Below, piece after piece: positions 65-29,884 of a stretch of 40,024 nucleotides of DNA. The notes beneath the pieces were generated by a model, which was not told the origin of the DNA, searched no databases, and saw only the letters and a list, made by a program, of their open reading frames with translations. A program made the position numbers and the translations under genes. Source of the stretch: Candidatus Hydrogenedentota bacterium (GTDB lineage: Bacteria > Hydrogenedentota > Hydrogenedentia > Hydrogenedentales > CAITNO01). The stretch lies in the NCBI GenBank assembly GCA_012730105.1, contig JAAYBJ010000082.1, positions 1-40,024 of the forward strand, written 5' to 3'. Position 1 is the first letter of the stretch, and the number at the start of each line of letters is the position of its first letter.

Positions 65-117
65 CAGTTGGGTGGTGGATTATCCCGCGCCGAGAACGCT
101 CGACTCGTGGAAAGGGC

Positions 118-230
118 CGGAACCGACCGGAACAGGGGGGCGCAATCAATCGGAATGGGTGGGCGCAATCAATCGGAATGGGTGGGCGCGATCAATCGGA
201 ATAGGGGGGCGCGATCAATCGGAATACCCA
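118..230 (+). repeat. 23-bp tandem terminal repeats, IS21-like right end
   Basis: Four near-identical 23-bp units start at 141, 164, 187 and 210 (core ATCAATCGGAAT followed by a G-rich GGTGGGCGC-like spacer), with a more degenerate unit at 118. The last unit ends GGAATACCCA, so the array stops in CA at 229-230, exactly where homology to another IS begins at about 231. From memory, IS21-family ends carry multiple GGAAT-ending repeats of about this period that bind the transposase. The family call rests on this resemblance and on the terminal CA. No istA or istB gene is visible in the window. Confidence 0.55.
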
Positions 231-4926: not shown

Positions 4927-5659
4927 ATGATAATTGAATCGAAGAAGGATCGCGCGGAGAAACAGGGTGCGCTTGGAGCCAACCAACGGTGGCGCGTGCG
5001 GTGCATTCGGGACGTGGTTTTGCGACTTTTGCGGGGTGAGCCGTTGGACGCTGTAAACTGGTAGGTGCGTGTGGATATCCACCGTCTGCAACAGTGGCGC
5101 GTGAAGGCGGTTGTGGGAATTGGTGAAGCCTCCAAAGATTGTACGGGAGATGCGCCGCAAGTGGACCTGGACACAGCCAAGCGCCACATCGGTGAACTAT
5201 CGATGAAGTTCGAACTGCTTAAGCGGGAAAGGTACCTACACCGCCCTTTTCCAAGGAAGAGGTCGTGAAATAAGCGCTCAGGTATCTCCCTCGATCGGCA
5301 GAGTCTACGGATTTAAGCGCATGTGCAAAGTCTGCCAGTTTGCCCACCCTACTTCTGTACACACAGAGGAGCAATGTGCGTGGGCGCCGAAGGCGCCCAA
5401 AGTGCGGTCCCGAGTCCCTGTACTCGGAAAGGACATTACAGAATTGGTTCGAGCCGACCTTGACCAATCACCGTTCTTGGGCGAGGCTCGCAGCAAGGTT
5501 TGGGCACGCCTGAAATACGGGGTTGGCCTTATGGTGGGGCGAAAGCGGGTGCTGCGGCTGATACGCGAGCACAACCTGCTTGCGGCGGCCCTAACATTCC
5601 CGACACTGTTCCTGACAGATTACTACACAACGAACATAAGATTGAAATCTACGGAATGA
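4927..5659 (+). pseudogene. Degenerate IS3-family transposase (orfA plus truncated orfB)
   Basis: orfA begins at ATG 4927 and encodes an RRWRVRCIRDVVLRLLRGEPLDAV-type helix-turn-helix, but TAG at 5062-5064 breaks it. The same frame continues through LDTAKRHIGELSMKFELLKRE, a leucine-zipper-like stretch, to TGA at 5266-5268. orfB follows in another frame from about 5260 with ISAQVSPSIGRVYGFKRMC and later SPFLGEARSKVWARLKYG and RKRVLRLIREHNLLA, all typical of IS3 orfB N-termini. It loses homology after about 5610, and the whole DDE catalytic domain is absent. The remnant ends about 10 bp from the stop codon of the helicase gene. Confidence 0.8.
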
Positions 5660-5670
5660 TGCTGATTTAC

Positions 5671-8600
5671 TCACACACCCGGTTCATAGAAAGAGAGAAG
5701 GTACTCACGTATTTCACCGGGAAGATCACGTACACCTTGACTTTGAAATGTGAAGTATTGCAGGATGTCCTCTAATCGCCAAAGACCAGGACGGCCATTT
5801 GTGTGCCATTCCTGGAAAACTGTTCGACCTAAATATCCACGTGCAATGCAGATTAAAAGTACCAAAGCTCCAAAAGCCGTCAATTCCTTTAATTGTGGCT
5901 CTAATAGCGGAGAGTGTTCACAGCGCCAGGGATACCAAATGACAATGTCTTTATCACTTAAACTATCCAACATATCGCTTGCACTGTGGGAAACGACATA
6001 CAACATGATATCCTGTCCCGGAGCAAAACTTAAACGGATACCAGTTCCTGAACTTATATCTCCCACTAAATACTCAGAAGAATACTCATCGTCTCCGAGC
6101 AGCAAACGCTGAAGAAGTCGACCAACATGGTGGATGTCGTCTACGTTTGGCAGACCTCCACCAGAATAACGTAAGTTATGGTCTACAAGTAGCAAATCCT
6201 GTATCTGTTTACAGAACTCGTGCCATACTTCGTGGAGCGTTTGTCTGTGAGACATAAGGTTCATAACTGAGTCAAACTCTCTCGCAAAGAATCGAAAAAC
6301 GTTGTCAACTATGTGACTTGAAGAGACCCCATCTGGAAGCGATATACTGCTAAAAAGATCCATTGGGCATGTTGCAGATAGAATTCTACAAGGAGTAACA
6401 TTGCGCTCCAGTAATCTTCGAATAGATTCTCGGTTCAGAGAGTAAGTATCAGCAGATTCACCAATGTGTAAAGCAATCCCTTCCGTAGGTACTCCCCACA
6501 TTAGACGACGCGCGAAACGCGGAAGATGTGTTTGAAATTCCTTTGGTGCTTCATCAGAAAGGTCAGCAAAACAACGCCAGCATAAAACAACGAGCCATGA
6601 CAATCGATCACAATATTTTTGGGAAAATGGCTTCTGTAAATCCGGATAATGTTGACTTGACAACTCAGTCATCTTACCGAACTCTTCTCCTCGCACCCAC
6701 ATCAAAGCGGCGGAAAAAAGTCTCATTAGCATCGGTTCACGAAATTCTTCACGTGTCGTGCCTCCCAGGTCACCCAGGTCAACACAGTCCCTAGCATGTT
6801 CGCGAATGATTGTGATTACATCGTCAATGGTCTCCGAAGATAACTCCAAGCGCTCAAGTTCATTTCTAAGCACGTCTTCGATATCAGTATCGTTCTTTCG
6901 AAATGCTTCTTCTCCACGATCTCTTTTCCCCGCACCCTGTTCCCAGCAATAAGTACGCCCAAATTGCCAAAAGTCGCGGGCACTAATGATACCCGGAAGG
7001 ACCAATTCTACTGGCCGGTTTGGGATATCTAGTTTCTGCAATCTCGTGAGCCAACGCTGGATTGGCGAAATGCTCCCGAAATGAGTTCCGGTGTCAACTA
7101 GAGCAAAGATGTGCGGAAGGGCCTGATATGAATTATCGGCGTTAAACTTGGCGTTAGAGGGAACAACACTTGTTCTGCGCATAAGAGCAGGACGTACACC
7201 GGGGTCACTGGCCAACTCCATAACACGAAAAATGATTTCTTTCGCTCGTTCTCTACGACGTTCTTCTGCAGCGATATAATAAAGAGAGTATTTAAAAAGC
7301 GCAAGTATATCACGTACTCTGACAGTACTACCTTCGTTGCCTCCCAAATGTCGCATCATTACAGCGACAGTCCGCATGGTCGGAAACGATACGTCATGAA
7401 TATCTACTAATGTTTCATCCTCAATCTTTCGAAGATCCGCGTCAAGTATGGCGCTACTCAAAACTTCTTCTTCAGGATTAGTCTCTAAATAATAACGGTT
7501 AATGACTTCTTCCGCATCCTTCGCAGCGTTAATGCATATAAGAGCTTCACCCCGTTCAGCCAGCTCCCATCGCCCCGCACGACCAAGCAGGTTGTGATAT
7601 TCATTAGGCTTTAACCATTCTTTTGGTGAGGTGTCATCAGCATCGTAATCAATACGCGGCCAACGTAGGTCAGCAAGAATAACACAGTCAACACTAAGAT
7701 TGACCCCATAGGTCAGTGTTTCCGTTGTATAAATTACATAAGCAGGCTTTGCTGTTCGAGCGGAATTGAAATGTTGTTCAATACACTGACGAATAGTCCG
7801 ATGCGTATCGCTAACATGTATATATATTCCTTTCTCTGCAAGACCTGTGAGCAACTTCTCTTCATTCGAATTCTCAAGGTTTTTCAAGGATTCACGAAAT
7901 CCCTTAGGTATTGAAAGATCGTTAATACCCTTACGCTTAGACAAGTGTTTTTGAGCCAAGCGCCGAATTCGAAAAGAAGAATTAACACAAACAAGAATTA
8001 CGCCATAATCTTCAGACTTCTTCTGTACAAGTTCAACAAGTTCTTCGTCGTAATCACCTTTTATTTTTGATTTTAATGCTTGTTTTAATAAATTAGAATT
8101 GATTTTGGCGAGTAAAGATTTTGCATTGGAACTTGACAAATATCGGTCACTAGCCTGCTGAAATGAAACAATGTCCATCGTTTCCATGCTGCGTGACCAA
8201 ACTAGCTGATGAAGTAATGGAACAGGCCGTTTTTTTGCGGCTAATTTTATTGGTTTAATTTCTCTATCGTTTTTGTCTGTGAACGTGAAGAATTTTAAGA
8301 TGGCCTCCTTCTCGACTATTTGCTCAGTACTGATTGCGACAATTCTGCATGGCCTGTCCGCGCTACGATTATTGTACAAGACTCGAGCAATTAATGCATC
8401 AATAACTCCCCCGCGTTGTTCTTGAGCCAACATATGAATCTCGTCAATAACAAGCATTCCTATACTGTGGAGAAGACCGCCTCTATCTCGGGCATTACCA
8501 CTTAGGAAGATATCAGCCTTTTCATTAACAATCATCGCAACTTTGAAATCCCCTGCACGAATGCGAGCATCGTTTTCAGGGAACTCACCAGATGACCTCA

Positions 8601-9708
8601 ATACGCCTCTCTCCGCAAGTTCGGTATTCTCCTGGCAATAACGTTTGATAAACGTTTGGTAACGTTCATTGACAAGCGACCTTGTTGGTGCGATATAGAT
8701 AACAGGCCGAAGTTGTTCGACAGCCACGTTTAACATGAGCATTTCAACTACTGTGGTTTTTCCACACCCGGTTGGCCCTCCTAATAGTATATGGGAACGT
8801 TCGCGGTTTGATCCGTAAGTGGGAAACAATGTATAGGCGTCAAGATTATCCTCTGCAGCACTCGGAATTTTAGCCAAATGTTCCTCATGATATGTCAATA
8901 CCCTTTCCGCCATCCCTTGGTCTAGGACTTCGCTAGACCAGAATTTAGAATCGCCTGCTACAATTGTGTTCACTGTATTTGGTGATTCCGGCAAAGCACT
9001 CTTCAATAACTGAAGAAGTTTGTGCTGTTTCTTGTCCTTGTGAACTGTGTCTGTTGCTCCCGCTTTGCTGCGGCTTTGGAGACCCAGCCATTGAGCGAGT
9101 CCTTGAATAGCAGAGCAATCACTCGGTTCCCATTTTCCTTCAGGTGTCAATGGTAATAAACGAACTAGGCCTTGTCCCTTATTATTGGCTATCTTGTAAC
9201 GCAAATTATCTATATCTTGTTGCGATAATTTGTGATGTGAGTAGCCGGTCTCCTGAGAATCATCCGGATGTATTATAAGTAATGCGCCATGATCGATAGC
9301 GTGTTGACATTTCTTATCGATTTTGCCAGAACTTCCAAGGGGATGATGTGAACCTTGACGAAAATTGGCACTTAGTAAAACAAGATCATAAGATACGTCA
9401 GTGGGTTCCTTTGGAAACACGTAGCAGGCCATAATCTCGCCGAGCATAGAAGCGGAACGACCATCAATACGGCAATCACGCAGATCTTTAGCATTAATTG
9501 ATGCTACTCGAAAACACACCCCTGTTACTTTTGCAAGATTCTCAAAACAACGATTCAGGTAGGGATCACTGAATGGCTGAACAGAAGGTAAAAGAGTGTT
9601 GTTCCAAAATAAACCTAGTTTTTCATTAGTTTCATAAATGACTACTGTTTCGATATAATGCTTGCCTTTTTGTTCAACAAGCAAGGGAAAGCCTAATGCC
9701 AGATTCAT
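5671..9708 (-). CDS. Lon-like protease domain fused to Ski2-like helicase
   Basis: 1345 residues. The superfamily 2 helicase core is clear: GGPTGCGKT (310-318, Walker A), PTRSLVNE (341-348, motif Ia), DEIH (422-425), AIST (458-461, motif III), TLTYGVNL (664-671) and GRAGR (709-713, motif VI). Order and motifs match Ski2/Hel308-type enzymes. The first 160 residues look Lon-like: IDGRSAS (81-87) resembles the Lon Ser motif DGPSAG, giving Ser85, and HHPLGSSGK (121-129) resembles LPIGGLK, giving Lys129; the 44-residue gap is close to the 43 of E. coli Lon. HGALLIIHP matches the strand that follows. The C-terminal 600 residues are not recognised. The start overlaps the previous stop by ATGA, so the two genes are probably coupled. 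It is the last gene of a four-gene cassette. The helicase is certain, the Lon fold probable, and a defence role only inferred. Confidence 0.85.
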   Translation of the reverse strand: MNLALGFPLLVEQKGKHYIETVVIYETNEKLGLFWNNTLLPSVQPFSDPYLNRCFENLAKVTGVCFRVASINAKDLRDCRIDGRSASMLGEIMACYVFPKEPTDVSYDLVLLSANFRQGSHHPLGSSGKIDKKCQHAIDHGALLIIHPDDSQETGYSHHKLSQQDIDNLRYKIANNKGQGLVRLLPLTPEGKWEPSDCSAIQGLAQWLGLQSRSKAGATDTVHKDKKQHKLLQLLKSALPESPNTVNTIVAGDSKFWSSEVLDQGMAERVLTYHEEHLAKIPSAAEDNLDAYTLFPTYGSNRERSHILLGGPTGCGKTTVVEMLMLNVAVEQLRPVIYIAPTRSLVNERYQTFIKRYCQENTELAERGVLRSSGEFPENDARIRAGDFKVAMIVNEKADIFLSGNARDRGGLLHSIGMLVIDEIHMLAQEQRGGVIDALIARVLYNNRSADRPCRIVAISTEQIVEKEAILKFFTFTDKNDREIKPIKLAAKKRPVPLLHQLVWSRSMETMDIVSFQQASDRYLSSSNAKSLLAKINSNLLKQALKSKIKGDYDEELVELVQKKSEDYGVILVCVNSSFRIRRLAQKHLSKRKGINDLSIPKGFRESLKNLENSNEEKLLTGLAEKGIYIHVSDTHRTIRQCIEQHFNSARTAKPAYVIYTTETLTYGVNLSVDCVILADLRWPRIDYDADDTSPKEWLKPNEYHNLLGRAGRWELAERGEALICINAAKDAEEVINRYYLETNPEEEVLSSAILDADLRKIEDETLVDIHDVSFPTMRTVAVMMRHLGGNEGSTVRVRDILALFKYSLYYIAAEERRRERAKEIIFRVMELASDPGVRPALMRRTSVVPSNAKFNADNSYQALPHIFALVDTGTHFGSISPIQRWLTRLQKLDIPNRPVELVLPGIISARDFWQFGRTYCWEQGAGKRDRGEEAFRKNDTDIEDVLRNELERLELSSETIDDVITIIREHARDCVDLGDLGGTTREEFREPMLMRLFSAALMWVRGEEFGKMTELSSQHYPDLQKPFSQKYCDRLSWLVVLCWRCFADLSDEAPKEFQTHLPRFARRLMWGVPTEGIALHIGESADTYSLNRESIRRLLERNVTPCRILSATCPMDLFSSISLPDGVSSSHIVDNVFRFFAREFDSVMNLMSHRQTLHEVWHEFCKQIQDLLLVDHNLRYSGGGLPNVDDIHHVGRLLQRLLLGDDEYSSEYLVGDISSGTGIRLSFAPGQDIMLYVVSHSASDMLDSLSDKDIVIWYPWRCEHSPLLEPQLKELTAFGALVLLICIARGYLGRTVFQEWHTNGRPGLWRLEDILQYFTFQSQGVRDLPGEIREYLLSFYEPGV

Positions 9709-10883
9709 TTATTATGCTCCAAGATAATAGCAACAGTATCATCCGAACAGCCAGACGATGGTGGATCGATAATCTGAAATATAATATCGGCCGCGCCAAC
9801 CACTGATAGGCACTCACACACAGTCCCATCCTGTTTTCGTATAGAAAAATACTCCTGTTCTTTTGTCTTCTGGAAGTATATGGCGATACTTTCGGTTGGA
9901 CTTAGAAAAACGCTGATCCGACCAGAACCATTATAATCAATGGATACTTCTATTGAGCCGTCTCCTGACAACGACCATGTGCCCGCCATTCCAGCACTGG
10001 ACGCTGCAAGTCTTAATCCAGTTTGAGATGAATTTTTCTTTTCGTTGAGTCTGGTGCGCACTAGGTTTAATGACTTGACGTTTTCCAAAAGGTTTGAATC
10101 ATGTGTGGCTAGAACCTGCAGCGCCTCAACACGTAAAGACGTTGTTGCAATGGTCATAAACTCTTGAAAGATACGACACGGCTCAAAGTAGGCGTGTATC
10201 TTGTTCTTTAAAGCACTACCCCCCATAATCTTTGAATGATCAACGCAATTTTTATGCTCTAGTTTGTCAAGCAACGCATCCAGTTCCTCATCCATAAGAT
10301 GGCCAATACACATTTTAAGCTTGGAAAGGGGAATAGGTTGTTCAAGAAAAGGGGTTACGACTATAGTGGGGTGAAACGCACTTTTCTGGAATACCAAGTC
10401 ATTTTCAGCCGCCAGTTCCGGCCAATCACTGATTGGTATTGCCTGAACCACTGTATCAGAGGATTCCGGGGTTTCAACAAGCAATATGGTATTCACTGTC
10501 GGAAATTCGAACTTGGCAGTCGCTGTATCCGGATTGATTTCCCAGATGGCGCCAAAGCAGGGGGGAATCTTCGCGCATTCCTGTAAGATCTTTTTGGCAC
10601 GGGAAATTTCGGCAGATTTCTCGCGTACAAAATTCCTGATGTTTTCTATCTGGTCCTCTGCTTCTTCAAGTGAGATGTTCCAGTCTTCATCGCTACCGGA
10701 CATATACGCTTCTTCCTCGCGTAATGCCTCGCAGGTTGATTCGAGATATTTCATCAGCGGTCCGCTGGCACGGTCAGCAATACAGTACATGAAATGCTCC
10801 ACGTGTATAGCATCCCGAAAATACGTTGCAAGTATTTCAATTAAATCCTCCGAAAAGTTAAATTTTTGTTCATTTTCTTTCAT
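9705..10883 (-). CDS. Hypothetical protein of the helicase cassette
   Basis: 392 residues, family not recognised. Residues 1-50 look helical (FSEDLIEILATYFRDAIHVEHF). Residues 52-100 form an acidic, probably coiled-coil stretch with SGSDEDWNISLEEAEDQIENI. The C-terminal third looks beta-rich (GTWSLSGDGSIEVSIDYNG, then SIAIYFQKTKEQEYFSI) and could be a small binding domain. There is no signal peptide or membrane segment, so it should be cytoplasmic. Its stop overlaps the helicase start by 4 bp, which suggests the two proteins are made together and may form a complex. ATG 10883 has only a weak GAGAG site. Confidence 0.75.
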   Translation of the reverse strand: MKENEQKFNFSEDLIEILATYFRDAIHVEHFMYCIADRASGPLMKYLESTCEALREEEAYMSGSDEDWNISLEEAEDQIENIRNFVREKSAEISRAKKILQECAKIPPCFGAIWEINPDTATAKFEFPTVNTILLVETPESSDTVVQAIPISDWPELAAENDLVFQKSAFHPTIVVTPFLEQPIPLSKLKMCIGHLMDEELDALLDKLEHKNCVDHSKIMGGSALKNKIHAYFEPCRIFQEFMTIATTSLRVEALQVLATHDSNLLENVKSLNLVRTRLNEKKNSSQTGLRLAASSAGMAGTWSLSGDGSIEVSIDYNGSGRISVFLSPTESIAIYFQKTKEQEYFSIRKQDGTVCECLSVVGAADIIFQIIDPPSSGCSDDTVAIILEHNK

Positions 10884-10959
10884 GATATTGTCTCTCGTAT
10901 GTCTTATCCGTTGGTATGTCCCTGCAAGTCCCTATTCCCTATTATAAGCAGGCTTCTTG

Positions 10960-12027
10960 CTAAGATTCCGGTTCCAAAGGATATGTATTTTGAAATATGT
11001 GGCATTGTTCAATTAACAAAGTCAGCACTTTGCTGCGCTCCGGCTCCGACAAGCCGTTCAGGTGCATGCTAAGTTGACGCTCCAATGCCGCACGCCGATC
11101 CGAAAAACGTACGGCATGATATCCATGTAGCCGTGCCCATGCCTTGGTCTCAGCATCGCTCCTCTCCAATACCCGGCCAGATATAACAAACCGATCCTCT
11201 GTCCTTAACCAACCCCAATACAAATCCGCCTGTTCTTTAGCCAGATTATGCAGCCCTGGCTCTGTTGGTCGCAGATTGTCGGGGCACAGCGCAGTCATTA
11301 CCTCTTCCGGGTTGTTTGTCTCGCTATCTGGTGGCATTTCCAGGCATGCTTCGTTGCCGTATATATCCTGTGGCATGAAACTGCAAATCGCTTCAACGAA
11401 GGGTTCGCGGGCAATACCGCTGAATTGTTCCGAGGCGAATTTATGCAACATCCTTAGATCATCGTTCGCCAGCAGCGGATGATCGTATTTTGAGTCTTGA
11501 TGATAGAGACGTATTTGAATGGGAATTCGGGTATCACAATCGGACTTGGTATTACCAGGCATTACAAAAACAACTTCATCGCGCAAGAAGTCTACAATAG
11601 TGGGGCCGCAAACCTGCGAACCCTCAGAAAAGGAAAGCGGCGGCTTAATATCATGGACTTTTTCTTGCAGGCGTTGTTTCAAATTCTTTCCAAAAAGGTC
11701 ATTGAAATAATCTTGCAGGAATTGCCGTCTATATTTTCTTAGAAACTGTATGTCAGGAGTAACTGTTTTCAACAAAGAGGCTTTGATGTATTCATCGCTC
11801 AGCAGATACATCAGGAAAGCTTGGGGCAATTCATTCATTAAGACAGATCGTGTTGATTCTTCCTCGCCTTTGCCGCATTTACTAATAACTGCTTTTACTT
11901 GAGCGGAACTTAACCTTAAAAATTGCATGCACTCGCGCACAAATCGGTGATGCAAATCTGTTCTGATCGTGCCCACGTCGCTAAATGACCGCATTACCTG
12001 CCCAAGAAGTTCAGGAAAGTCCATCAT
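10960..12027 (-). CDS. Hypothetical protein of the helicase cassette
   Basis: 355 residues, family not recognised. The N-terminal half is helical and basic (FLRKYRRQFLQDYFNDLFGKNLKQRLQEK in outline). The middle contains VCGPTIVDFLRDEVVFVMPGNTK. The C-terminus is again helical (RRAALERQLSMHLNGLSEPERSKVLTLL). No catalytic motif, signal peptide or membrane helix was seen. It starts 3 bp after the stop of the 183-residue gene, consistent with coupling. ATG at 12027 or 12024 could be used, and neither has a good ribosome site. A 76-bp gap separates it from the next gene downstream. Confidence 0.75.
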   Translation of the reverse strand: MMDFPELLGQVMRSFSDVGTIRTDLHHRFVRECMQFLRLSSAQVKAVISKCGKGEEESTRSVLMNELPQAFLMYLLSDEYIKASLLKTVTPDIQFLRKYRRQFLQDYFNDLFGKNLKQRLQEKVHDIKPPLSFSEGSQVCGPTIVDFLRDEVVFVMPGNTKSDCDTRIPIQIRLYHQDSKYDHPLLANDDLRMLHKFASEQFSGIAREPFVEAICSFMPQDIYGNEACLEMPPDSETNNPEEVMTALCPDNLRPTEPGLHNLAKEQADLYWGWLRTEDRFVISGRVLERSDAETKAWARLHGYHAVRFSDRRAALERQLSMHLNGLSEPERSKVLTLLIEQCHIFQNTYPLEPES

Positions 12028-12030
12028 AAC

Positions 12031-12582
12031 TCAGCGCCCTTTTCCGATTGCGATATCATCCTGCGGATGAGGCGTATGCGCAGCGGAAAAAACCGCTTGT
12101 GCCTTGTTTTTCATAGGTTTCCTGCATTCAGCAGCATAGCAGTCTTCAATATATTGAAACTCCGACATCTCGGAAGGTGACAGCATGGTCTTAGAGAGGC
12201 CATCCTTCCACACGCTGTTCTTTGCCCAGAACAGGCTGGCGGAGATTGGATAGCAACGGTTGATGTTGAAATAAGTTACCCGTTCTTCCTGGGTTATCCC
12301 CTTCACCGGCAGTTCATAGCGAGGCGAGCCTTTGATTCTTGTATGGCCATGAATCATTATTATGGCGACCGATTCAGTATCAGGCGTACACTGAACACAG
12401 CCTGGATGCGCAGTGCGGTTGGGGTTGCGAGGATATCGCCCTTCTGGGTCTGATTCTTCCCATACCTCCTCTGAAACCCAGCGGATAGCTCCCCTGCGTA
12501 TCGGATCGAGTTCCAACATTAGCCGTAGTATTTGGTTCTGTTGTGGATGTTCAGCAAGCATCTGCACTTCCTTCGAATTCAT
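12031..12582 (-). CDS. Hypothetical protein, first gene of the helicase cassette
   Basis: 183 residues, family not recognised. It has few cysteines: HPGCVQC in the middle and CYAAEC near the C-terminus could form a metal site, but the spacing is not diagnostic. IIMIHGHTRIKGSPRYELPVKG suggests a beta core, and the last 40 residues look disordered (KPMKNKAQAVFSAAHTPHP). ATG 12582 has no clear ribosome site. An in-frame ATG at 12561 is preceded by AAGGAAG with about 6 bp spacing and may be the true start, which would shorten the protein by seven residues. The gene opens the four-gene run toward the Lon-helicase. Confidence 0.7.
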   Translation of the reverse strand: MNSKEVQMLAEHPQQNQILRLMLELDPIRRGAIRWVSEEVWEESDPEGRYPRNPNRTAHPGCVQCTPDTESVAIIMIHGHTRIKGSPRYELPVKGITQEERVTYFNINRCYPISASLFWAKNSVWKDGLSKTMLSPSEMSEFQYIEDCYAAECRKPMKNKAQAVFSAAHTPHPQDDIAIGKGR

Positions 12583-12795: not shown

Positions 12796-13545
12796 TCAAT
12801 TCATGATCAATACCGTTCCTGTCGCATGACACTGCATTGTTGCAAAATACAATACGTAATTTGCAATCTCAGAAGGCTTTATAATATAACACAAAGGCGT
12901 ACGATCCAAAATATTGCCTTGTTCTTTCACAGACCCGGATTTATGACGCTCAGTGGCCACGTATCCGGGAACCACGGCATTGACCCGTATGGCTGGCGCA
13001 AGTTCCAGTGCCAGGGATTTTGTGATGCCGAGTAGGGCTGCTTTTGAGGCCACATAATGATGGGAGCGGCCCAGGGGAGCGGTCGCCGCAGTGGAGGCGA
13101 TATTGATAATATCGCCTTCCTGGCCGTCCAGTAGCCGCGCGAAGGCGCGTGTGGTCCACCACGGCCCCATCAGATTGGTGGCCATGACTTGCTCCCAGTC
13201 CGAATCCGTGATGGTGTGGAGATTACCCGGTGTACAGATACCGGCGTTGTTTACCAAGATGTTTGCCGGTTTACCAAAGGCGCGCAGTGGGGCTTGAAGC
13301 AACGCTTCCGCACCTTGGGGATTGCTGATGTCTGCAAGAAAAGGGACGGCATTGCCGCCGTCCCTTTCGATCTCGCCGCAGACCTGGTCCGCCAGATCAA
13401 CATTTTCTTGGCAACCGACTACTACACGGACTCCTGCTCCACTCAAGGCAAGGCAAATGGCCCTACCGATTTCCCGGCTTCCACCGGTAACCACGGCAAT
13501 CAGGGTATCATTGCTGGCAGCAATCATCGTTTCAGGCCTGTCCAT
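12796..13545 (-). CDS. Short-chain dehydrogenase/reductase, FabG-like
   Basis: 249 residues of a classical SDR. The NAD(P)-binding TGGSREIGRAI lies near residue 20, NNAG follows at about residue 95, and the catalytic Ser with HYVASK supplies Tyr and Lys. Glutamate in the glycine motif (SREIG in place of the common SRGIG) is a mild oddity. Substrate unknown; oxidation or reduction of a hydroxy or keto group is expected. The protein stops at VLIMN with TGA, and the frame would continue with a Gly after this stop, where most relatives have a DGG-type ending. A few residues are therefore probably lost. The probable left end of the IS at about 13547 lies immediately beside the start codon, so the native promoter was probably displaced. 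Confidence 0.85.
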   Translation of the reverse strand: MDRPETMIAASNDTLIAVVTGGSREIGRAICLALSGAGVRVVVGCQENVDLADQVCGEIERDGGNAVPFLADISNPQGAEALLQAPLRAFGKPANILVNNAGICTPGNLHTITDSDWEQVMATNLMGPWWTTRAFARLLDGQEGDIINIASTAATAPLGRSHHYVASKAALLGITKSLALELAPAIRVNAVVPGYVATERHKSGSVKEQGNILDRTPLCYIIKPSEIANYVLYFATMQCHATGTVLIMN

Positions 13546-13546
13546 G

Positions 13547-14920
13547 CTGAAAATTCGTACTTGTTGATATATAAGGCGTTAGGATAATCAGAATTTGGTT
13601 TCTGTTGCTGGTTGGATTGAGAAAAATCTGTCCATTTTTGTTATGTTACTCCTCTGAAAAATGTATTCCAGATTATTTTATTGGAGGAGTTTCGGTGAAC
13701 TTCATAGGATTGTGTCTCAGATTTCTATTTTCAATGTTCAAATCGCATTCAGCACTCTGTGCTGAGAATCTGGCTTTGCGGCATCAACTTTGCGTGTATC
13801 AGCGGAGTGTTAAACGTCCGAAAGTACGCCCTATTGACCGTATTCTTTGGGGCCTGCTATCAAGAGTTTGGACACGGTGGAAGGATGCGCTTATTTTTGT
13901 CAAACCGGATACAGTTATCCGATGGCAGCGCAAACGGTTCAAGGAGTATTGGAGGAGACTATCTACTTCCGGCAAGCCCGGCAGGCCTCCCGTCGCAGAG
14001 GAAGTTAAGAACCTGATTCGAACCATGTCGTCCATGAATCCGACCTGGGGTTCGCCGCGCATCGTGGGCGAACTGGCAAAACTTGGTATCACGGTCACCA
14101 AATCGACAGTGGACAAGTATCGCGTGCGCGTTCGAAAGCCGCCCTCCCCGTCGTGGCGCGCGTTTCTCAAGAACCACATGAAGGAACTTGTTTCGGTTGA
14201 CTTTCTGGTTGTGCCGACGGTCCGGTTCAAGATTCTCTATGTGTTTCTCGTGCTGTCCATTGAAAGGCGCCGCATCATTCACTTCGCCATTACTCAACAC
14301 CCAACTGCAGCATGGACTGCACAGCAAGTGGTAGAAGCCTTTCCATGGGACACCGCTCCAAAGTACCTGCTTCGCGACCGCGACAAGGTCTATGGCGGTT
14401 GGTTTAAGCGACGCGTCAGGAACATGGGCATCGAAGAAGTCCTCACAGCGCCACACAGTCCCTGGCAGAATCCGTATTCGGAAAGACTTAACGGATCTAT
14501 TCGGCGAGAATGTCTGGACCATGTCATTGTCTTCGGCGAAAACCATCTGAGAAGAATCATTGGTGATTACGTCGCATACTACAATGGTTCCAGAACACAC
14601 CTGTCCTTGGACATGGACAGCCCAGACATGCGACCCGTTCAGATGCCTGACCAAGGCAAAGTCATTTCGCTCCCCCAAGTCGGTGGACTTCATCATCGCT
14701 ACGAACGTCGCGCCGCCTAACACACATACTGTGTATCTCCTGTTCATTTTTCCGTGTTCCCACAAACGCAAGAGTGGACGGTTATGTTCAGTCCTTCCTT
14801 GGAGTTCCCCAAGCGCAAATCGAAGATAGATATCACGCATCGAAACATCGGATTGACTTCTCATCTTCTATCGGATTACGCTTAAAACAAACATGAATAC
14901 CTGTCGGATGGATTTTCAGG
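13547..14920 (+). mobile_element. Intact integrase-type IS element
   Basis: A single-gene insertion sequence of about 1.37 kb. The right end is supported by the second, decayed copy at 231-522, which keeps GGATTTTCAGG at the same distance from the transposase stop. The left end is proposed at CTGAAAATTCG (13547), which is close to the reverse complement of the right end, CTGAAAATCCA. The repeats are short and no clear target duplication was found, so the ends are uncertain by some 10 bp. The body has about 150 bp of leader, the transposase gene and a 200-bp trailing non-coding part. Confidence 0.6.
13695..14720 (+). CDS. DDE transposase with integrase core (IS3/IS481-like)
   Basis: 341 residues from GTG 13695, which has GGAGGAG 5 bp upstream; a longer frame to 13605 lacks a ribosome site. 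The N-terminal 110 residues are a basic helical DNA-binding part (AENLALRHQLCVYQR, then SGKPGRPPVAEEV). The rve catalytic core follows: Asp169 in LVSVDFLVV, Asp228 in YLLRDRD and Glu263 in NPYSER, a D-x34-E spacing. It should cut and join the element's ends. The gene is intact, in contrast to the remnant at 232-324, whose last 30 residues are nearly identical. Family members are often annotated simply as integrase core proteins; the exact ISfinder family is uncertain. Confidence 0.88.
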   Translation: MNFIGLCLRFLFSMFKSHSALCAENLALRHQLCVYQRSVKRPKVRPIDRILWGLLSRVWTRWKDALIFVKPDTVIRWQRKRFKEYWRRLSTSGKPGRPPVAEEVKNLIRTMSSMNPTWGSPRIVGELAKLGITVTKSTVDKYRVRVRKPPSPSWRAFLKNHMKELVSVDFLVVPTVRFKILYVFLVLSIERRRIIHFAITQHPTAAWTAQQVVEAFPWDTAPKYLLRDRDKVYGGWFKRRVRNMGIEEVLTAPHSPWQNPYSERLNGSIRRECLDHVIVFGENHLRRIIGDYVAYYNGSRTHLSLDMDSPDMRPVQMPDQGKVISLPQVGGLHHRYERRAA

Positions 14921-24181: not shown

Positions 24182-25297
24182 TCAGGTTTCGAGATGCGCC
24201 CAAAAGTCATATTCTACCGGGGGACGTTCCGCAGGAAGAGAGAACGGGAAGGCTCGGTAGGTCTTGGGGGACACGGTCTTCACGCGTTCGTAGCCGTCAA
24301 GTATCCAATCCGCCGCGGACTGCTCCAGCGAGTCGGTTAACAGCTGTTTCGGATCGGGGGAATGGCGTTCCGATACCTTTCCCAATCGGAGAATCAATCT
24401 CGTTCCCGGTCGGCTGATTGCCGCACAGTGCCTCCACACGGCAGCAAGATCGCGCGTATAGCACGCTGGATCGTCCTGGTCAAGCCTGCCGGGCGTCTCT
24501 TCTTCTATTCCCAGCAGCCACATGCGAAGCCATTGACTGGAATAGTAGGCATCCAATCCGTAATACGGCGGTGAACAGAAAATACAGTCAATATCCCTAA
24601 AGGGGTGGTAGCACTCCGAAGAACGGTTGTCGCCCAGGAGGATTTGTCCGGGAACGGGCGGGGGGCAGTCGGCGAAAAGGTAACAGGCACGCCGTGCTAT
24701 GGCATCCAGCACATTGATTTCGGGAGGATTCTTGCCGTGTTTTGCCCAATAGTCTGTCAGGAGTTGCGAAGCCGGAGAAAAGGAGGACGGCATTTCATTG
24801 GACAGGTAGGCTCCGCGAATGCTGTTGCCGGGGCCATGAATAAGTCCGGCGATTGTGGCGCAAAGGGCCGCATCCAATTCTGAAATCAGGCATGTTTTGA
24901 AATGGGAACGAAACGCAAGCAGGTCCCGCAGCACCGAAGGGGAGAAGCACAGGCGCCAGAATTCTCCCGCCGGCGGGATCTCATCATGGTTTGCCTGTGC
25001 CAGAATTGCCGCCGCGTGATTTATGAGTGACGCGGGCTGCAGGGACGAAAGTTTAGCCCGTGAAATGACGGCGGCAAGAAGATTGGAATCCATGCCGTAT
25101 GCCTGGGAGCCCAAAAGTCGCGCCGCCAACGGGGTGGTGCCGCCGCCACAGAAGGGGTCGAATACCTTTTGGGGGTTATTTTCCGCAAGTTGGGACAAGG
25201 GAAAGGTCAGGGGGAAACGCGTGAAATAGGGGCATATCGAATCCAGACGACATTGACGCTTGCGGGGTAAGGTCACCGATGGCCCCTTTCCTGTCAA
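24182..25297 (-). CDS. Site-specific DNA methyltransferase (N4/N6 amino type)
   Basis: 371 residues. DPFCGGGTT (47-55) is the SAM-binding motif in the form found in beta-class amino-methyltransferases, and CSPPYYGLDAYYSSQW is the catalytic (D/N/S)PPY motif. Motif IV thus follows motif I at some distance, with no recognisable large target-recognition insert. It should methylate adenine N6 or cytosine N4. No restriction endonuclease gene is near it, so it looks like an orphan enzyme. Oddly, its start overlaps the stop of trkH by 4 bp, putting it at the end of the potassium operon. Confidence 0.82.
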   Translation of the reverse strand: MTGKGPSVTLPRKRQCRLDSICPYFTRFPLTFPLSQLAENNPQKVFDPFCGGGTTPLAARLLGSQAYGMDSNLLAAVISRAKLSSLQPASLINHAAAILAQANHDEIPPAGEFWRLCFSPSVLRDLLAFRSHFKTCLISELDAALCATIAGLIHGPGNSIRGAYLSNEMPSSFSPASQLLTDYWAKHGKNPPEINVLDAIARRACYLFADCPPPVPGQILLGDNRSSECYHPFRDIDCIFCSPPYYGLDAYYSSQWLRMWLLGIEEETPGRLDQDDPACYTRDLAAVWRHCAAISRPGTRLILRLGKVSERHSPDPKQLLTDSLEQSAADWILDGYERVKTVSPKTYRAFPFSLPAERPPVEYDFWAHLET

Positions 25298-26784
25298 TAC
25301 CGTTTCCAGAAAGACGGAATGAACAAAGTACAGATGGCATACAACTCAAGCCGGCCCATGGCCATCAACAGGGAAAGTAACAATTTACCGCTGGCCGGCA
25401 GGAAACTATAGGATTCCACCGCGCCCACCAGTTCCAGGCCCGGTCCAATATTGTTCAAACAGGCCGCAACGGCGGAGAAACTGCTGGTGAGAGGTAATTT
25501 TAAATAGGCCAGGTAAAGGGTGCCCAAGATAGTCGCAAAAATGTAGATGGTGAAAAACGTCAGGAGCGATTTTTGATGTTCGTTTGGAATGATAAGTTCG
25601 TCCACGCGAAGCACCCGTATATTTTTGGGTTGAAAGGTGTTTTCCAAATGCTTGTATACGAGTTTCAGCAACAAAAAGACCCGGACCACTTTGAGTCCCC
25701 CGCCGGTGGATCCGGAACAACCGCCAACAAACATCAGGACGACCAACAAGGCCCTTGAAAAATGGGGCCACAAGTCAAAATCGACGGTGCAAAATCCAGT
25801 GGTGGTCATAATGGATACGGTATGAAAAACGGACGCCCGCACATGGTCCCAGATGTCCGGACTCGTTGACAGGTTTTCAACCCCGATTGGGCCCGGCAGG
25901 GAATGGTCGGCAGCATGAAGGTTAAGCGTAATCAGCAGGGAGGAGGCTGCCAGCAGCAGGATGTAAAAGCGAAATTCCGCGTTTTTAAGAAATTTTTTGT
26001 AGTCCCCTTGGCTTAAACAAAAAAGCAGGCTGAAACTGGTTCCCGCGATGATCATGAATATGACTAGAATCGCCTCGATCAAAGGGCTGTTGTAGGCGGC
26101 GATGCTGTTTTGACGGGTGGAAAAACCGCCCGTTGCCAGCGTGGCAAAGGTATGGCAAAGAGAATCGAAGAGACTCATGCCCGAAACCCAAAGCAGCAGG
26201 GTTAAGGAAACGGTAAGGAACAGGTAGATTTTTAGAAGGATAATTGCCGAATCCTTGATTCTTGGCCGGATACTGCTTTTGTCCAATCCAGGCATTTCAG
26301 AGCGATACAGCAGTTTGCCGCCTGCACCGAGGAACGGCAGGATTATGATGAGCAACAGAATGATGCCTAATCCACCCAGCCAATGGGTAAAACTTCGCCA
26401 AAACAGTAAGCTCTTAGGAAGGGATTCAATGTCGTCCAGGACGGTTGCGCCTGTGGTGGTGAATCCTGACATGGATTCAAAATAGGCGCTGTCAAAGGCA
26501 AGTTCTCCAGAGAGCACATACGGCAGTGCGCCGTAAAAAGCGGTCATCAACCAGCCAATGCCGACAAGCGCGAGGGTTTCTCGGTGATACAACTGGCCGT
26601 CATCTTTGCGGCCCAGCACAAACAGCAATCCGCCTGTGCAAAGGGCAGCAAGCATGGACAGGGTGAAAGCAGCCAGCATCTCTGTTTCCCAGTAGATAAG
26701 GCTGCACAGGACGGACGGCAGAAACATGAACGATATGGCCATGTTGGCAAGGCCAAGATGCTTGGCAAAGCTTCGGTGGTTCAT
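25294..26784 (-). CDS. trkH: Trk potassium transporter membrane subunit (second copy)
   Basis: 496 residues of a TrkH/KtrB-type channel-like subunit. Four pore loops are visible: MSGFTTTGATVLDD, ATGGFSTRQNS, MTTTGFCTVDF and NNIGPGLELVG, together with GCSGSTGGG and GTSFSLLF segments of the M1-P-M2 repeats. It moves K+ across the inner membrane with the TrkA regulator, encoded upstream in the same operon. ATG 26784 is preceded by AAGGGATC. It is 196 bp downstream of its paralogue, and that gap holds nothing recognisable. Confidence 0.92.
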   Translation of the reverse strand: MNHRSFAKHLGLANMAISFMFLPSVLCSLIYWETEMLAAFTLSMLAALCTGGLLFVLGRKDDGQLYHRETLALVGIGWLMTAFYGALPYVLSGELAFDSAYFESMSGFTTTGATVLDDIESLPKSLLFWRSFTHWLGGLGIILLLIIILPFLGAGGKLLYRSEMPGLDKSSIRPRIKDSAIILLKIYLFLTVSLTLLLWVSGMSLFDSLCHTFATLATGGFSTRQNSIAAYNSPLIEAILVIFMIIAGTSFSLLFCLSQGDYKKFLKNAEFRFYILLLAASSLLITLNLHAADHSLPGPIGVENLSTSPDIWDHVRASVFHTVSIMTTTGFCTVDFDLWPHFSRALLVVLMFVGGCSGSTGGGLKVVRVFLLLKLVYKHLENTFQPKNIRVLRVDELIIPNEHQKSLLTFFTIYIFATILGTLYLAYLKLPLTSSFSAVAACLNNIGPGLELVGAVESYSFLPASGKLLLSLLMAMGRLELYAICTLFIPSFWKRY

Positions 26785-26980
26785 AGATCCCTTTATATTT
26801 CAAGCATACTGCGTCATTTCTGTGTGTTTATGGTCGTAAGGGCACCTGGAAATCCAACCCCTCGCAACATTGTATTGATATCGGCATTGCCTTCACAAGA
26901 ACGTACGGGAAGTATAACAAACTCTACCGTGCGCTTGATCGCTGAGAATTGTGTAATCCTGTCTTGTAAGCATCAAAATA

Positions 26981-28471
26981 TCAATATTTCCTCCAAAAAG
27001 AGGGCAGAAAAAGGGCGCAGATCGCATAGAGCTTAAGTCTTCCCATAGCCATGATGAATGACAATAAGACTTTTGCTGAAGCCGGCATGAATCCATAATT
27101 TGAAACTGCTCCGACCTGATCGAGGCCGGGGCCGACACCATTAAAACATGAGGCAACCGCGCTTAAGCTGGTGACCATAGGAATTCCAATAGCGGTCAGG
27201 AGCAATGTCGCTGCGATAAACACACAGGCGTATAGTGTAAAGTAGGATAATATAGACCGCTGTAATTCTTTGTCAACAATCATGTTGTCCGCGCGAAACA
27301 CGCGGATATCTTTAGGGCGGAATGTTTGTGTAAGGTGCCACACAGCCATTTTAAAAAGCAGCATGACGCGAACGACTTTCAGTCCGCCGGAGGTTGATCC
27401 GGAGCATCCTCCGATTACCATGAGAACCAACAACAGCATACGGGAAAAGTCGGGCCACTGATTGAAATCCGTGGTACAAAATCCTGTGCAGGTCATTATG
27501 GAAACGGTCTGAAAAACAACCAGGCGGATACGTTCCAGAAAACCGGGGTCTCCGTGAGTTTCCGGAGCCCCGATAAGGCCAGGGATGGATGGGTGGGAAA
27601 AAAGAATATTAAGGCTTATCAATACTGCCGATACCAGCAACAGGGACAGGTAAAGGCGCCATTCCCCGTTCTTATAAACCGTCTTGTATTCCCCCACTGC
27701 GAAACAATAAATCAGGCTGAAACTTGTGCCCGCGATTATCATAAAGACGCATATAATGCATTCAATCAGCGGACTGTCATAGGCGGCAATGCTTGCGTTG
27801 CGGGTGGAAACCCCCCCCGTTGCCAGGGTCCCGAAAGTATGACAAAGGGAATCATATAAATCCATGCCCGCGAATAGCAATAACAGGGTCATCAGAATGG
27901 TAAGGCCTGCGTAAATACGAAAAAGGAAAATGGCGGAATCCTTGATCCGCGGTTTAAAACTGCTCTTGTCCAGACCCGGCATCTCGGAACGGTACAGGAG
28001 TTTACCGCCGGCACCGAGGAAGGGAAGCACAATAATGATCAGCAAAATGATGCCCAATCCCCCCAGCCAGTGGGTAAAACTGCGCCAGAAAAGAATACCT
28101 TTAGGAAGTACTTCTATATCCGATAATATGGATGCGCCTGTTGTGCTGAAACCGGACATGGATTCAAAATAAGCGTCCACAAAAGAAAGATGGCCCGAAA
28201 GGATATAGGGTATCGCGCCATATAAAGCGATGAGCAGCCAGCCGGCGCCCACCAATCCAAGCGTTTCTCTATGCTGAAGACTGTTATCAGCCCTTCGACC
28301 CAGCATATAGAGCAGGCCGCCGCAAGCGGCTGTGAAGAGAATGCAGCACAAAAAAGTAGCGGCCACCGCAGTTTCTTTGTACCACAACGCGCACAACAAA
28401 GATGGCAGGAACATGGGGGATGAGGCAAGACTGAAAACGCCCAGGTTTTTCAGGAAGGCGGATTTGTTCAT
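26981..28471 (-). CDS. trkH: Trk potassium transporter membrane subunit (first copy)
   Basis: 496 residues, the same length as the downstream paralogue and similar throughout. Its pore loops read MSGFSTTGASILSD, ATGGVSTRNAS, MTCTGFCTTDF and FNGVGPGLDQVG, so loops 1, 2 and 3 differ from the paralogue by only a few residues next to the conserved glycines. It begins 6 bp after the stop of trkA with no obvious ribosome site of its own, which suggests coupling. The pair probably arose by tandem duplication followed by divergence. Confidence 0.92.
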   Translation of the reverse strand: MNKSAFLKNLGVFSLASSPMFLPSLLCALWYKETAVAATFLCCILFTAACGGLLYMLGRRADNSLQHRETLGLVGAGWLLIALYGAIPYILSGHLSFVDAYFESMSGFSTTGASILSDIEVLPKGILFWRSFTHWLGGLGIILLIIIVLPFLGAGGKLLYRSEMPGLDKSSFKPRIKDSAIFLFRIYAGLTILMTLLLLFAGMDLYDSLCHTFGTLATGGVSTRNASIAAYDSPLIECIICVFMIIAGTSFSLIYCFAVGEYKTVYKNGEWRLYLSLLLVSAVLISLNILFSHPSIPGLIGAPETHGDPGFLERIRLVVFQTVSIMTCTGFCTTDFNQWPDFSRMLLLVLMVIGGCSGSTSGGLKVVRVMLLFKMAVWHLTQTFRPKDIRVFRADNMIVDKELQRSILSYFTLYACVFIAATLLLTAIGIPMVTSLSAVASCFNGVGPGLDQVGAVSNYGFMPASAKVLLSFIMAMGRLKLYAICALFLPSFWRKY

Positions 28472-28477
28472 ATAAAT

Positions 28478-29830
28478 TTAGTGCCCTTGGAATATTCGCT
28501 GGGCGTCCGGAATGGTGTTTGCCTTGGCAATTACGACAACAGAGTCACCATTTTTCAGAATATCCTCACCGCCGGGAACAAAGGCGGAGTCACCGCGAAT
28601 AATAGAGGCAACGATGAGATTATGGGTGATAAGTGCGTTCAATTCGCGTAATTTTTTGCCTGCTGCAGGAGAGGAATTACCGAGAGCGATTTCCAGGACT
28701 TCCACATCGCCTTCCCGGAGTACTGAAGACGTGGAAATGGACTGTTGACGCAGTATTTTGAGTACGCTGTTGGCGACCGCGTCTCTCGGCGTCACCGCCA
28801 TATCAATGCCGAGTTTTACCACCAGGGGCGCAAAGTCCGGATGATGCACCACCACCGCACCCATTCTGACGCCTACCTCGCGGGCGAGTACCCCGGCGAT
28901 GATATTACGCTCATCATCTTCGGTGGTGGCCACGAATAAATCGTAGTCGGACACATGTTCCTGCTCGAGATTGGTGCGCGACGTGGCATCCCGGTGAATT
29001 ACATGTATATTGGCTTTGCGAAAACCGGTCGCGATGCGTTCAGCCTTTTCCTTGTTCACCTCAAATAGTTTAACGGAAGTGATTTTCCCCTCCAGCGAAT
29101 GGGCGATCCATCTTCCTATGGCGCCCCCGCCCATAATTACAACATGCTGCATTCGAGGTTCTGTACCTTGAAACTTCTGAAGCGCCTCGTGCATCAGGCC
29201 ACGCTTGCCGATCAGGGTGACTTTGTCTCCAGGGGAAATGCGATCATTACCGTGGGGGATGGTCATCTTGCCGTTGTGTTCCAGGACCCCCACCAGAATA
29301 CCGCTGCCGGGCGGCAGGGTGTCGCGCAACAGGTTATTAGCCGCCGGTGCGTTGTCGCTAACACGCACCTGTCGAAGCTGAATTTGGCCCCGGGCGAAAT
29401 CTTCCGAGGCCAGCACCCCGGGATAAATAATATAGTTGACAATTTCCTGTGCCACAAGGGCGTCTGGACTGAGCATGTAGTCAACACTCAAAAAACCTTC
29501 ATATAAAAAACTTTCTTCGATGAAGACGGCTTTTTCCACACGCGCCAGCACCTGCCGCGCGCCGAGACCCTTGGCGGCGGCGGCGGCGATAAGATTGGTT
29601 TCATCCGAGCCGGTGCAGGCGATGAACAAATCGGCTTCGCCCGCCTGCAGGGATTGAAGCAATAAGGCCGACGTGCCGTCGCCCGAAACAACGTGGGCGT
29701 TTAAGGCCATGTCAATCTGTTCATGGCGTTCGGCGTCCGCCTCGATTACGGTCACATCGTACTGTTCTTCACTGAGCATGTGGGCGAGATGAAAGCCGAC
29801 ACGTCCTCCGCCCAATATAAATATGTTCAT
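28478..29830 (-). CDS. trkA: Trk system potassium uptake regulator
   Basis: 450 residues from ATG 29830, with GGAGGG 4 bp upstream; the longer frame to 29884 is not favoured. Two Rossmann RCK domains are visible, the first opening NIFILGGGRVGFHLA and the second HVVIMGGGAIGRWIAHSL. Each is followed by a RCK_C/TrkA_C module (for example LREGDVEVLEIALGNSSPAAGKKLREL). The protein binds nucleotides at the cytoplasmic face and gates TrkH. The two-copy RCK layout is the usual full-length TrkA form. It leads the operon trkA-trkH-trkH-methyltransferase. Confidence 0.93.
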   Translation of the reverse strand: MNIFILGGGRVGFHLAHMLSEEQYDVTVIEADAERHEQIDMALNAHVVSGDGTSALLLQSLQAGEADLFIACTGSDETNLIAAAAAKGLGARQVLARVEKAVFIEESFLYEGFLSVDYMLSPDALVAQEIVNYIIYPGVLASEDFARGQIQLRQVRVSDNAPAANNLLRDTLPPGSGILVGVLEHNGKMTIPHGNDRISPGDKVTLIGKRGLMHEALQKFQGTEPRMQHVVIMGGGAIGRWIAHSLEGKITSVKLFEVNKEKAERIATGFRKANIHVIHRDATSRTNLEQEHVSDYDLFVATTEDDERNIIAGVLAREVGVRMGAVVVHHPDFAPLVVKLGIDMAVTPRDAVANSVLKILRQQSISTSSVLREGDVEVLEIALGNSSPAAGKKLRELNALITHNLIVASIIRGDSAFVPGGEDILKNGDSVVVIAKANTIPDAQRIFQGH

Positions 29831-29855
29831 GAAACCCTCCATTGTGGGTGGGAAG

Positions 29856-29884
29856 ATACTAAAGAGGATTTTTAATTCTATCAA
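29856..29884 (-). promoter_or_regulatory. Probable trkA operon promoter
   Basis: The minus strand has TTGATA, a 17-bp spacer and TAGTAT, which ends about 25 bp upstream of the trkA start codon. The match to the sigma70 consensus is five of six and four of six. Confidence 0.5.

Follow-up and report, generated by a model that had tools for sequence, protein, structure and literature searches.

In the Calp system (CalpL/CalpT/CalpS), cleavage of CalpT by CalpL frees the sigma factor CalpS. CalpT is a 33-kDa protein, which CalpL cuts to a 23-kDa fragment (PMC11417357). In Hachiman (HamAB), HamA is a DUF1837 nuclease with a D-E(X)K motif, and HamB binds this nuclease partner via its N-terminal extension (PMC12278908). 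A locus that invites comparison with both systems lies in the window (the whole stretch of DNA analyzed, 40,024 nucleotides of a contig from a Candidatus Hydrogenedentota bacterium). It consists of four minus-strand genes, transcribed in the order gene 1, gene 2, gene 3, gene 4, with a 3-bp gap between genes 1 and 2, a 76-bp gap between genes 2 and 3, and a 4-bp overlap (ATGA) of genes 3 and 4; the open reading frame listing reproduces exactly the coordinates, lengths and junctions that the original prediction gave for the four reading frames. What had been taken for a helicase with three partners is instead a three-gene core with an exchangeable fourth gene, either a helicase or a TPR protein. 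The features of the locus are as follows.

12031-12582, minus strand: gene 1, 183 aa, 21 kDa; constant core
10960-12027, minus strand: gene 2, 355 aa, 41 kDa; constant core, without known family
9705-10883, minus strand: gene 3, whole, 392 aa
10017-10883, minus strand: gene 3 N-terminal part, residues 1-289, 33 kDa; common to both cassette types
9705-10016, minus strand: gene 3 C-terminal part, residues 290-392, 11 kDa; exchangeable, proposed docking domain
5671-9708, minus strand: gene 4, 1345 aa, 153 kDa; Ski2/Hel308-like SF2 helicase, greatly extended at both termini
8809-9708, minus strand: gene 4 N-terminal extension, residues 1-300; fold uncertain, Lon-like by eye
8755-8781, minus strand: Walker A motif GGPTGCGKT of gene 4, residues 310-318; identical in the related locus G035
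8428-8445, minus strand: motif II, DEIH(ML), of gene 4, residues 422-427; identical in G035
7570-7605, minus strand: motif VI, NEYHNLLGRAGR, of gene 4, residues 702-713; identical in G035
5674-7431, minus strand: gene 4 C-terminal region, residues 760-1345; well conserved between the window and G035
5321-5659, plus strand: IS transposase remnant past the 3' end of gene 4 (HTH_21, E=3.7e-4)
12796-13545: SDR (short-chain dehydrogenase) gene, between gene 1 and the rve_3 transposase
13605-14720, plus strand: 371-aa rve_3 IS transposase, past the SDR gene as seen from gene 1 (PF13683, E=1.4e-14)

Four loci are known in all, two per cassette type. The helicase type is represented by the window and G035, the TPR type by G010 (Candidatus Hydrogenedens sp.) and G004, where a TPR-repeat protein replaces the helicase as gene 4. 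The same four genes stand in the same order in G035, with a 3-bp gap, a gap of ~71 bp and an 11-bp overlap, and genes 1, 2 and 3 recur in G010 and G004; the recurrence of this order, with nearly the same junctions, establishes that the arrangement is not due to chance. The TPR-type gene 4 of G010 is split over two contigs, its pieces (joined because they match neighboring stretches of the G004 protein, not because their sequences overlap) amounting to about 690 aa in sum, without a helicase. The G004 core is likewise spread over two contigs (C266 and C99), the adjacency of genes 2 and 3 there being inferred. The genes travel together: genes 1 and 3 are found in the same 4 of the 68 genomes of the phylum (Hydrogenedentota), and a search of 386 wider relatives turned up gene 2 in these four, accompanied each time by the other two. 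The helicase is found in 2 of the 386 (E<=1e-35), and both homologues adjoin core genes, so that the case that would have spoken against the original prediction, a helicase whose homologues never accompany the other three genes, is not what these genomes hold. No close relatives of the cassette were found among plasmids, phages and viral contigs. Scans of 84,980 genomes returned no relative for the helicase motifs and, for the gene 1 motif, only the Hydrogenedens locus and two further matches, whose reading frames are those of unrelated proteins; since exact matches were demanded, these scans leave room for distant relatives. Comparison with the CHAT-protease operons of Hydrogenedentota gave no signal of kinship. 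The module is not described in the literature searched; PADLOC-DB dates from 2023, and a later description is possible.

The G+C content of the cassette is 0.443, against 0.522 outside it in the window, and it is also below that of the flanks at the remaining three loci (0.505/0.619, 0.458/0.517 and 0.376/0.482). The AT-rich setting of the original prediction is thereby confirmed, and flanking by IS remnants was broadly right as well: the transposase fragment lies on one side and the rve_3 transposase on the other, the latter with the SDR gene in between. The left contig end carries a partial repeat of this second IS (77%) and, at window 115-229, a short array of tandem copies of a 23-bp unit, GGGCGCAATCAATCGGAATGGGT, next to an IS remnant that recurs at 14626-14768. 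Elsewhere on the contig, two successive TrkH potassium-transport genes stand beside a TrkA gene (25294-29884), and the 371-aa protein encoded at 24182-25297, adjoining a TrkH gene, matches methyltransferase models in part (N6_N4_Mtase at the cut-off; PADLOC MTase_II, E=3e-18). Neighbors are unrelated from locus to locus among the four. The G035 cassette lies near genes for a TrwB/TraG-type coupling protein and a Dam-type (D12) adenine methylase, and ~14-18 kb from it a ZorD/DpdE-like SNF2 helicase (E=1e-123) adjoins PDC-S02 (E=3e-134). In this segment (L152:10424-14408; G035 contig C32, about 74.9-78.9 kb) the 924-aa SNF2 helicase overlaps the 427-aa PDC-S02 protein, and several unmatched large ORFs lie beside the pair; together these may form a separate defense unit. 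No defense neighbors were detected at the window, G010 and G004 loci. Because the remaining window contig holds metabolic and transport genes for the most part, the defense-island argument rests on one locus, G035.

Gene 3 can be divided near residue ~290 of the window protein, at a LAAS-like segment that is conserved. Its first ~289 residues align across all four loci at 23-40% (shuffle z 9-31), the window sequence matching that of G004 at 39%, G010 at 33.5% and G035 at 23%, each with z of at least 10. The last ~103 residues, in contrast, come in two versions: the helicase-class tails of the window and G035 match at 38% (z=18) and the TPR-class tails of G010 and G004 at 35% (z=15), while similarity between the classes is undetectable (z -0.5 to 1.8; 0.6 and -0.5 for the window against the TPR types). 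Tail class agrees with gene 4 type at four of four loci. For genes 1 and 2 and the N-terminal part of gene 3, however, the closer relatives of the window are G004 and G010, not G035. We read the gene 3 tail and gene 4 as one exchangeable unit, whose boundary would lie inside gene 3. The four loci are compatible with either direction of exchange, and one replacement in an ancestor shared by G004 and G010 would be enough to explain the tail classes; the two versions could also have arisen by fast divergence and not by replacement. By either route the tail changes together with gene 4, which makes it probable that the tail is the docking domain for gene 4.

Judged by its sequence, gene 4 is a member of the Ski2-like helicase group, as had been claimed. 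Its helicase core (approximately residues 300-760) is intact, with a DEAD match (PF00270, E=1.6e-16) and a partial Helicase_C match in Pfam; motifs I, II, V and VI of the Ski2-like SF2 family are present (GGPTGCGKT, DEIH, TLTYGVNL and NEYHNLLGRAGR) and are kept in the G035 helicase, which is 53% identical. The best named match is the Hel308 model (107 bits, far under the model's cut-off), and the PDB relatives by sequence are ASCC3, Brr2 and Hel308 (E down to 8e-30). The Hachiman HamB profiles of PADLOC match residues 304-756 only (E 8.5e-20, 68 bits). Residues 1-300 and 760-1345 have no family match in Pfam, PADLOC, NCBIfam or PHROGs; a single-sequence AF2 model of residues 1-303 (pLDDT 34) is unfit for fold searches. 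Close to the C-terminus, residues 1276-1294 (window 5827-5883) form a strongly hydrophobic 19-residue stretch, LTAFGALVLLICIARGYLG (hydropathy 1.85), which is kept in G035 and may be a buried helix or a membrane contact.

Genes 1-3 have no convincing match in Pfam, NCBIfam, PHROGs or PADLOC, nor do their relatives at the related loci in Pfam or PADLOC, and no nuclease motif was recognized in them. The proposed check by profile search (PADLOC, Pfam) thus finds only the core of gene 4, and the description of the three partners as belonging to no recognizable family holds. For two of these proteins described as cytoplasmic, those of genes 1 and 2, the hydropathy profile shows no prominent membrane segment (maxima over 19 residues of 0.65 and 1.05). 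In global hhalign, gene 1 gives a weak profile signal against PemK (12.8 versus 2.5+-1.9 for shuffled profiles, 0/40, z about 5), although a single 0/40 or 0/60 in this analysis is no more than suggestive because the profile comparisons covered several pairs, with 40-60 shuffles. This MazF-like resemblance sits in gene 1 and not in the adaptor gene 3, for which a local PemK-like signal was gone in restricted and global tests. Gene 1 possibly encodes a PemK/MazF-like barrel with three histidines that are invariant in the alignment of homologues (H59, H78 and H80), but HP or HF takes the place of the RP motif of PemK. Gene 1 has no Pfam match, and a genome search with PF02452 did not detect it; its structure predicted from two sequences (pLDDT 38) is unfit for fold searches. 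A sigma factor was considered for gene 2 and rejected: hhalign scores are at shuffle level, the C-terminus aligns out of register and there is no Pfam match. Promoter-like sites 5' of gene 1 are at chance level.

The cassette probably has a role in defense, for which a working scheme can be proposed. The constant core would consist of genes 1 and 2 together with gene 3 except for its last quarter, and gene 4 would be its exchangeable input, here a Ski2-like helicase engaging nucleic acid. Gene 4 would be held on this core by the ~11 kDa at the C-terminus of gene 3; such docking would explain why the tail is exchanged with gene 4. The helicase would engage abnormal (invader or damaged) nucleic acid, and the resulting change would pass by way of gene 3 to the core. 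Output would come from the core, with gene 1 (PemK/MazF-like with an active site of its own) as the likeliest effector. We regard the chances as evenly balanced that the whole is a mobile four-protein module, an anti-phage or anti-plasmid defense unit of core, docked gene 4 and gene 1 effector. More tentatively, the cassette may represent a new kind of defense module, in which a constant three-protein core takes a helicase or TPR (possibly Lon-like) plug-in, the matching plug is the C-terminal domain of the adaptor, and the swap boundary lies inside the adaptor gene. If so, it adds a defense unit whose three core proteins fit no described family and places a Hel308-like helicase within a bacterial accessory unit; replacing sensor and matching adaptor tail together would be a natural route to new sensing, and the sensor/effector interface would become directly testable through tail swaps.

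The defense role, first proposed from architecture and setting, gains from the mobile, G+C-poor surroundings of the cassette and from the conjugation gene and two PADLOC-type defense genes at G035, and is still one that we infer. The same conjugation gene would also suit a mobile-element or stress/repair operon with no part in defense (serving, for example, nucleic-acid repair or the regulation of a conjugative element), and repair is a role of Hel308-like helicases; however, the very patchy spread (4 of 68 genomes), the different neighborhood at each locus and the lack of any recognized replication, partition or transfer gene within the unit render such an operon unlikely. Exchange of whole modules is typical of conflict systems, and this also speaks against such an operon. 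A diverged Hachiman-type system, with the helicase as sensor and one of genes 1-3 as a nuclease effector changed beyond recognition, is very improbable. The Ski2-like core common to both, the match of the HamB profiles to it, and the use that HamB makes of its N-terminal extension to bind a nuclease partner (PMC12278908) speak for it, but the parallel goes no further than the helicase core: genes 1-3 have no HamA/DUF1837 match in the window (PADLOC, Pfam, NCBIfam) or at the related loci (PADLOC, Pfam), just as the original prediction had said of the partners, and their alignments contain no invariant D-ExK; the helicase is nearer to Hel308 (107 bits) than to HamB, there are two further partner genes, and the sister type is without a helicase.

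A switch resembling Calp is conceivable but quite unlikely: in it, a Lon-like protease at the N-terminus of gene 4 would, once the helicase or TPR sensor is engaged, cut gene 3 and release a regulator (gene 2 or gene 1). By eye, DGRSAS in gene 4 (S85; 9448-9465) resembles the Lon serine motif DGPSAG. Local hhalign of the TPR-type gene 4 with true Lon gives 24.9 against 13.3+-2.1 for shuffled sequences (0/60), the N-terminus of the helicase gives a weak 18.3 with Lon_C against a null of 13.0+-2.4 (2/60), and the two signals fall on the same C-terminal Lon block. The division of gene 3 into 33 and 11 kDa recalls CalpT with its 33 kDa cut to 23 kDa (PMC11417357), and the PemK/MazF resemblance of gene 1 would suit such a switch too. 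On the other hand, global comparisons give no Lon signal, and a wider Lon set adds nothing to that of the helicase; by manual alignment the serine is present, but where Lon has its catalytic lysine, the window has D131 and G035 has A; gene 2 is without sigma-factor signal over its length; and there is no CalpL match among PDB sequences. As applied to gene 4, the label "Lon-like" is weakly supported: the serine-type motif and the local signal speak for it, the global tests and the replaced lysine against. No signal of kinship links the N-terminus of the helicase with that of the TPR type. An ORF from one genome of the same genus (L081:604-1098) resembles, on inspection by eye, the Lon-like C-terminal portion of BrxL.

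How, then, does the putative defense cassette compare with what has been described? With Hel308, Ski2, Brr2 and ASCC3, gene 4 shares a helicase core in which motifs I to VI are intact; it differs from them in its unmatched 300-residue N-terminal and 585-residue C-terminal extensions and in lying in an operon with three unknown proteins. The candidate system PDC-M23B of PADLOC matches the helicase core (E=1.1e-15), but the match is confined to that core and extends to no partner in the cassette. Calp and the cassette are alike as multi-protein operons with a possible Lon-like part, a possible MazF-like part and a two-portion adaptor; the cassette has a helicase or TPR protein instead, and the catalytic Lon lysine is not kept (manual alignment). 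Gene 4 of either type has no SAVED match (PADLOC, Pfam), no ECF sigma factor partner was found (Pfam, hhalign), and no CRISPR genes were seen beside the cassette; judged from these searches, the cassette falls short of Calp on two counts, SAVED and the sigma factor. Hachiman and AbpAB share with the cassette a large Ski2-like SF2 helicase beside partner proteins and an N-terminal extension before the helicase core, whereas the cassette has no HamA/DUF1837 and no recognized nuclease motif, has three partners and a helicase closer to Hel308 than to HamB, and has a sister type without a helicase; on sequence grounds it is not Hachiman, since HamA is missing. A member of none of the systems compared, the cassette would nevertheless, if the defense reading is right, work like the helicase-sensor systems.
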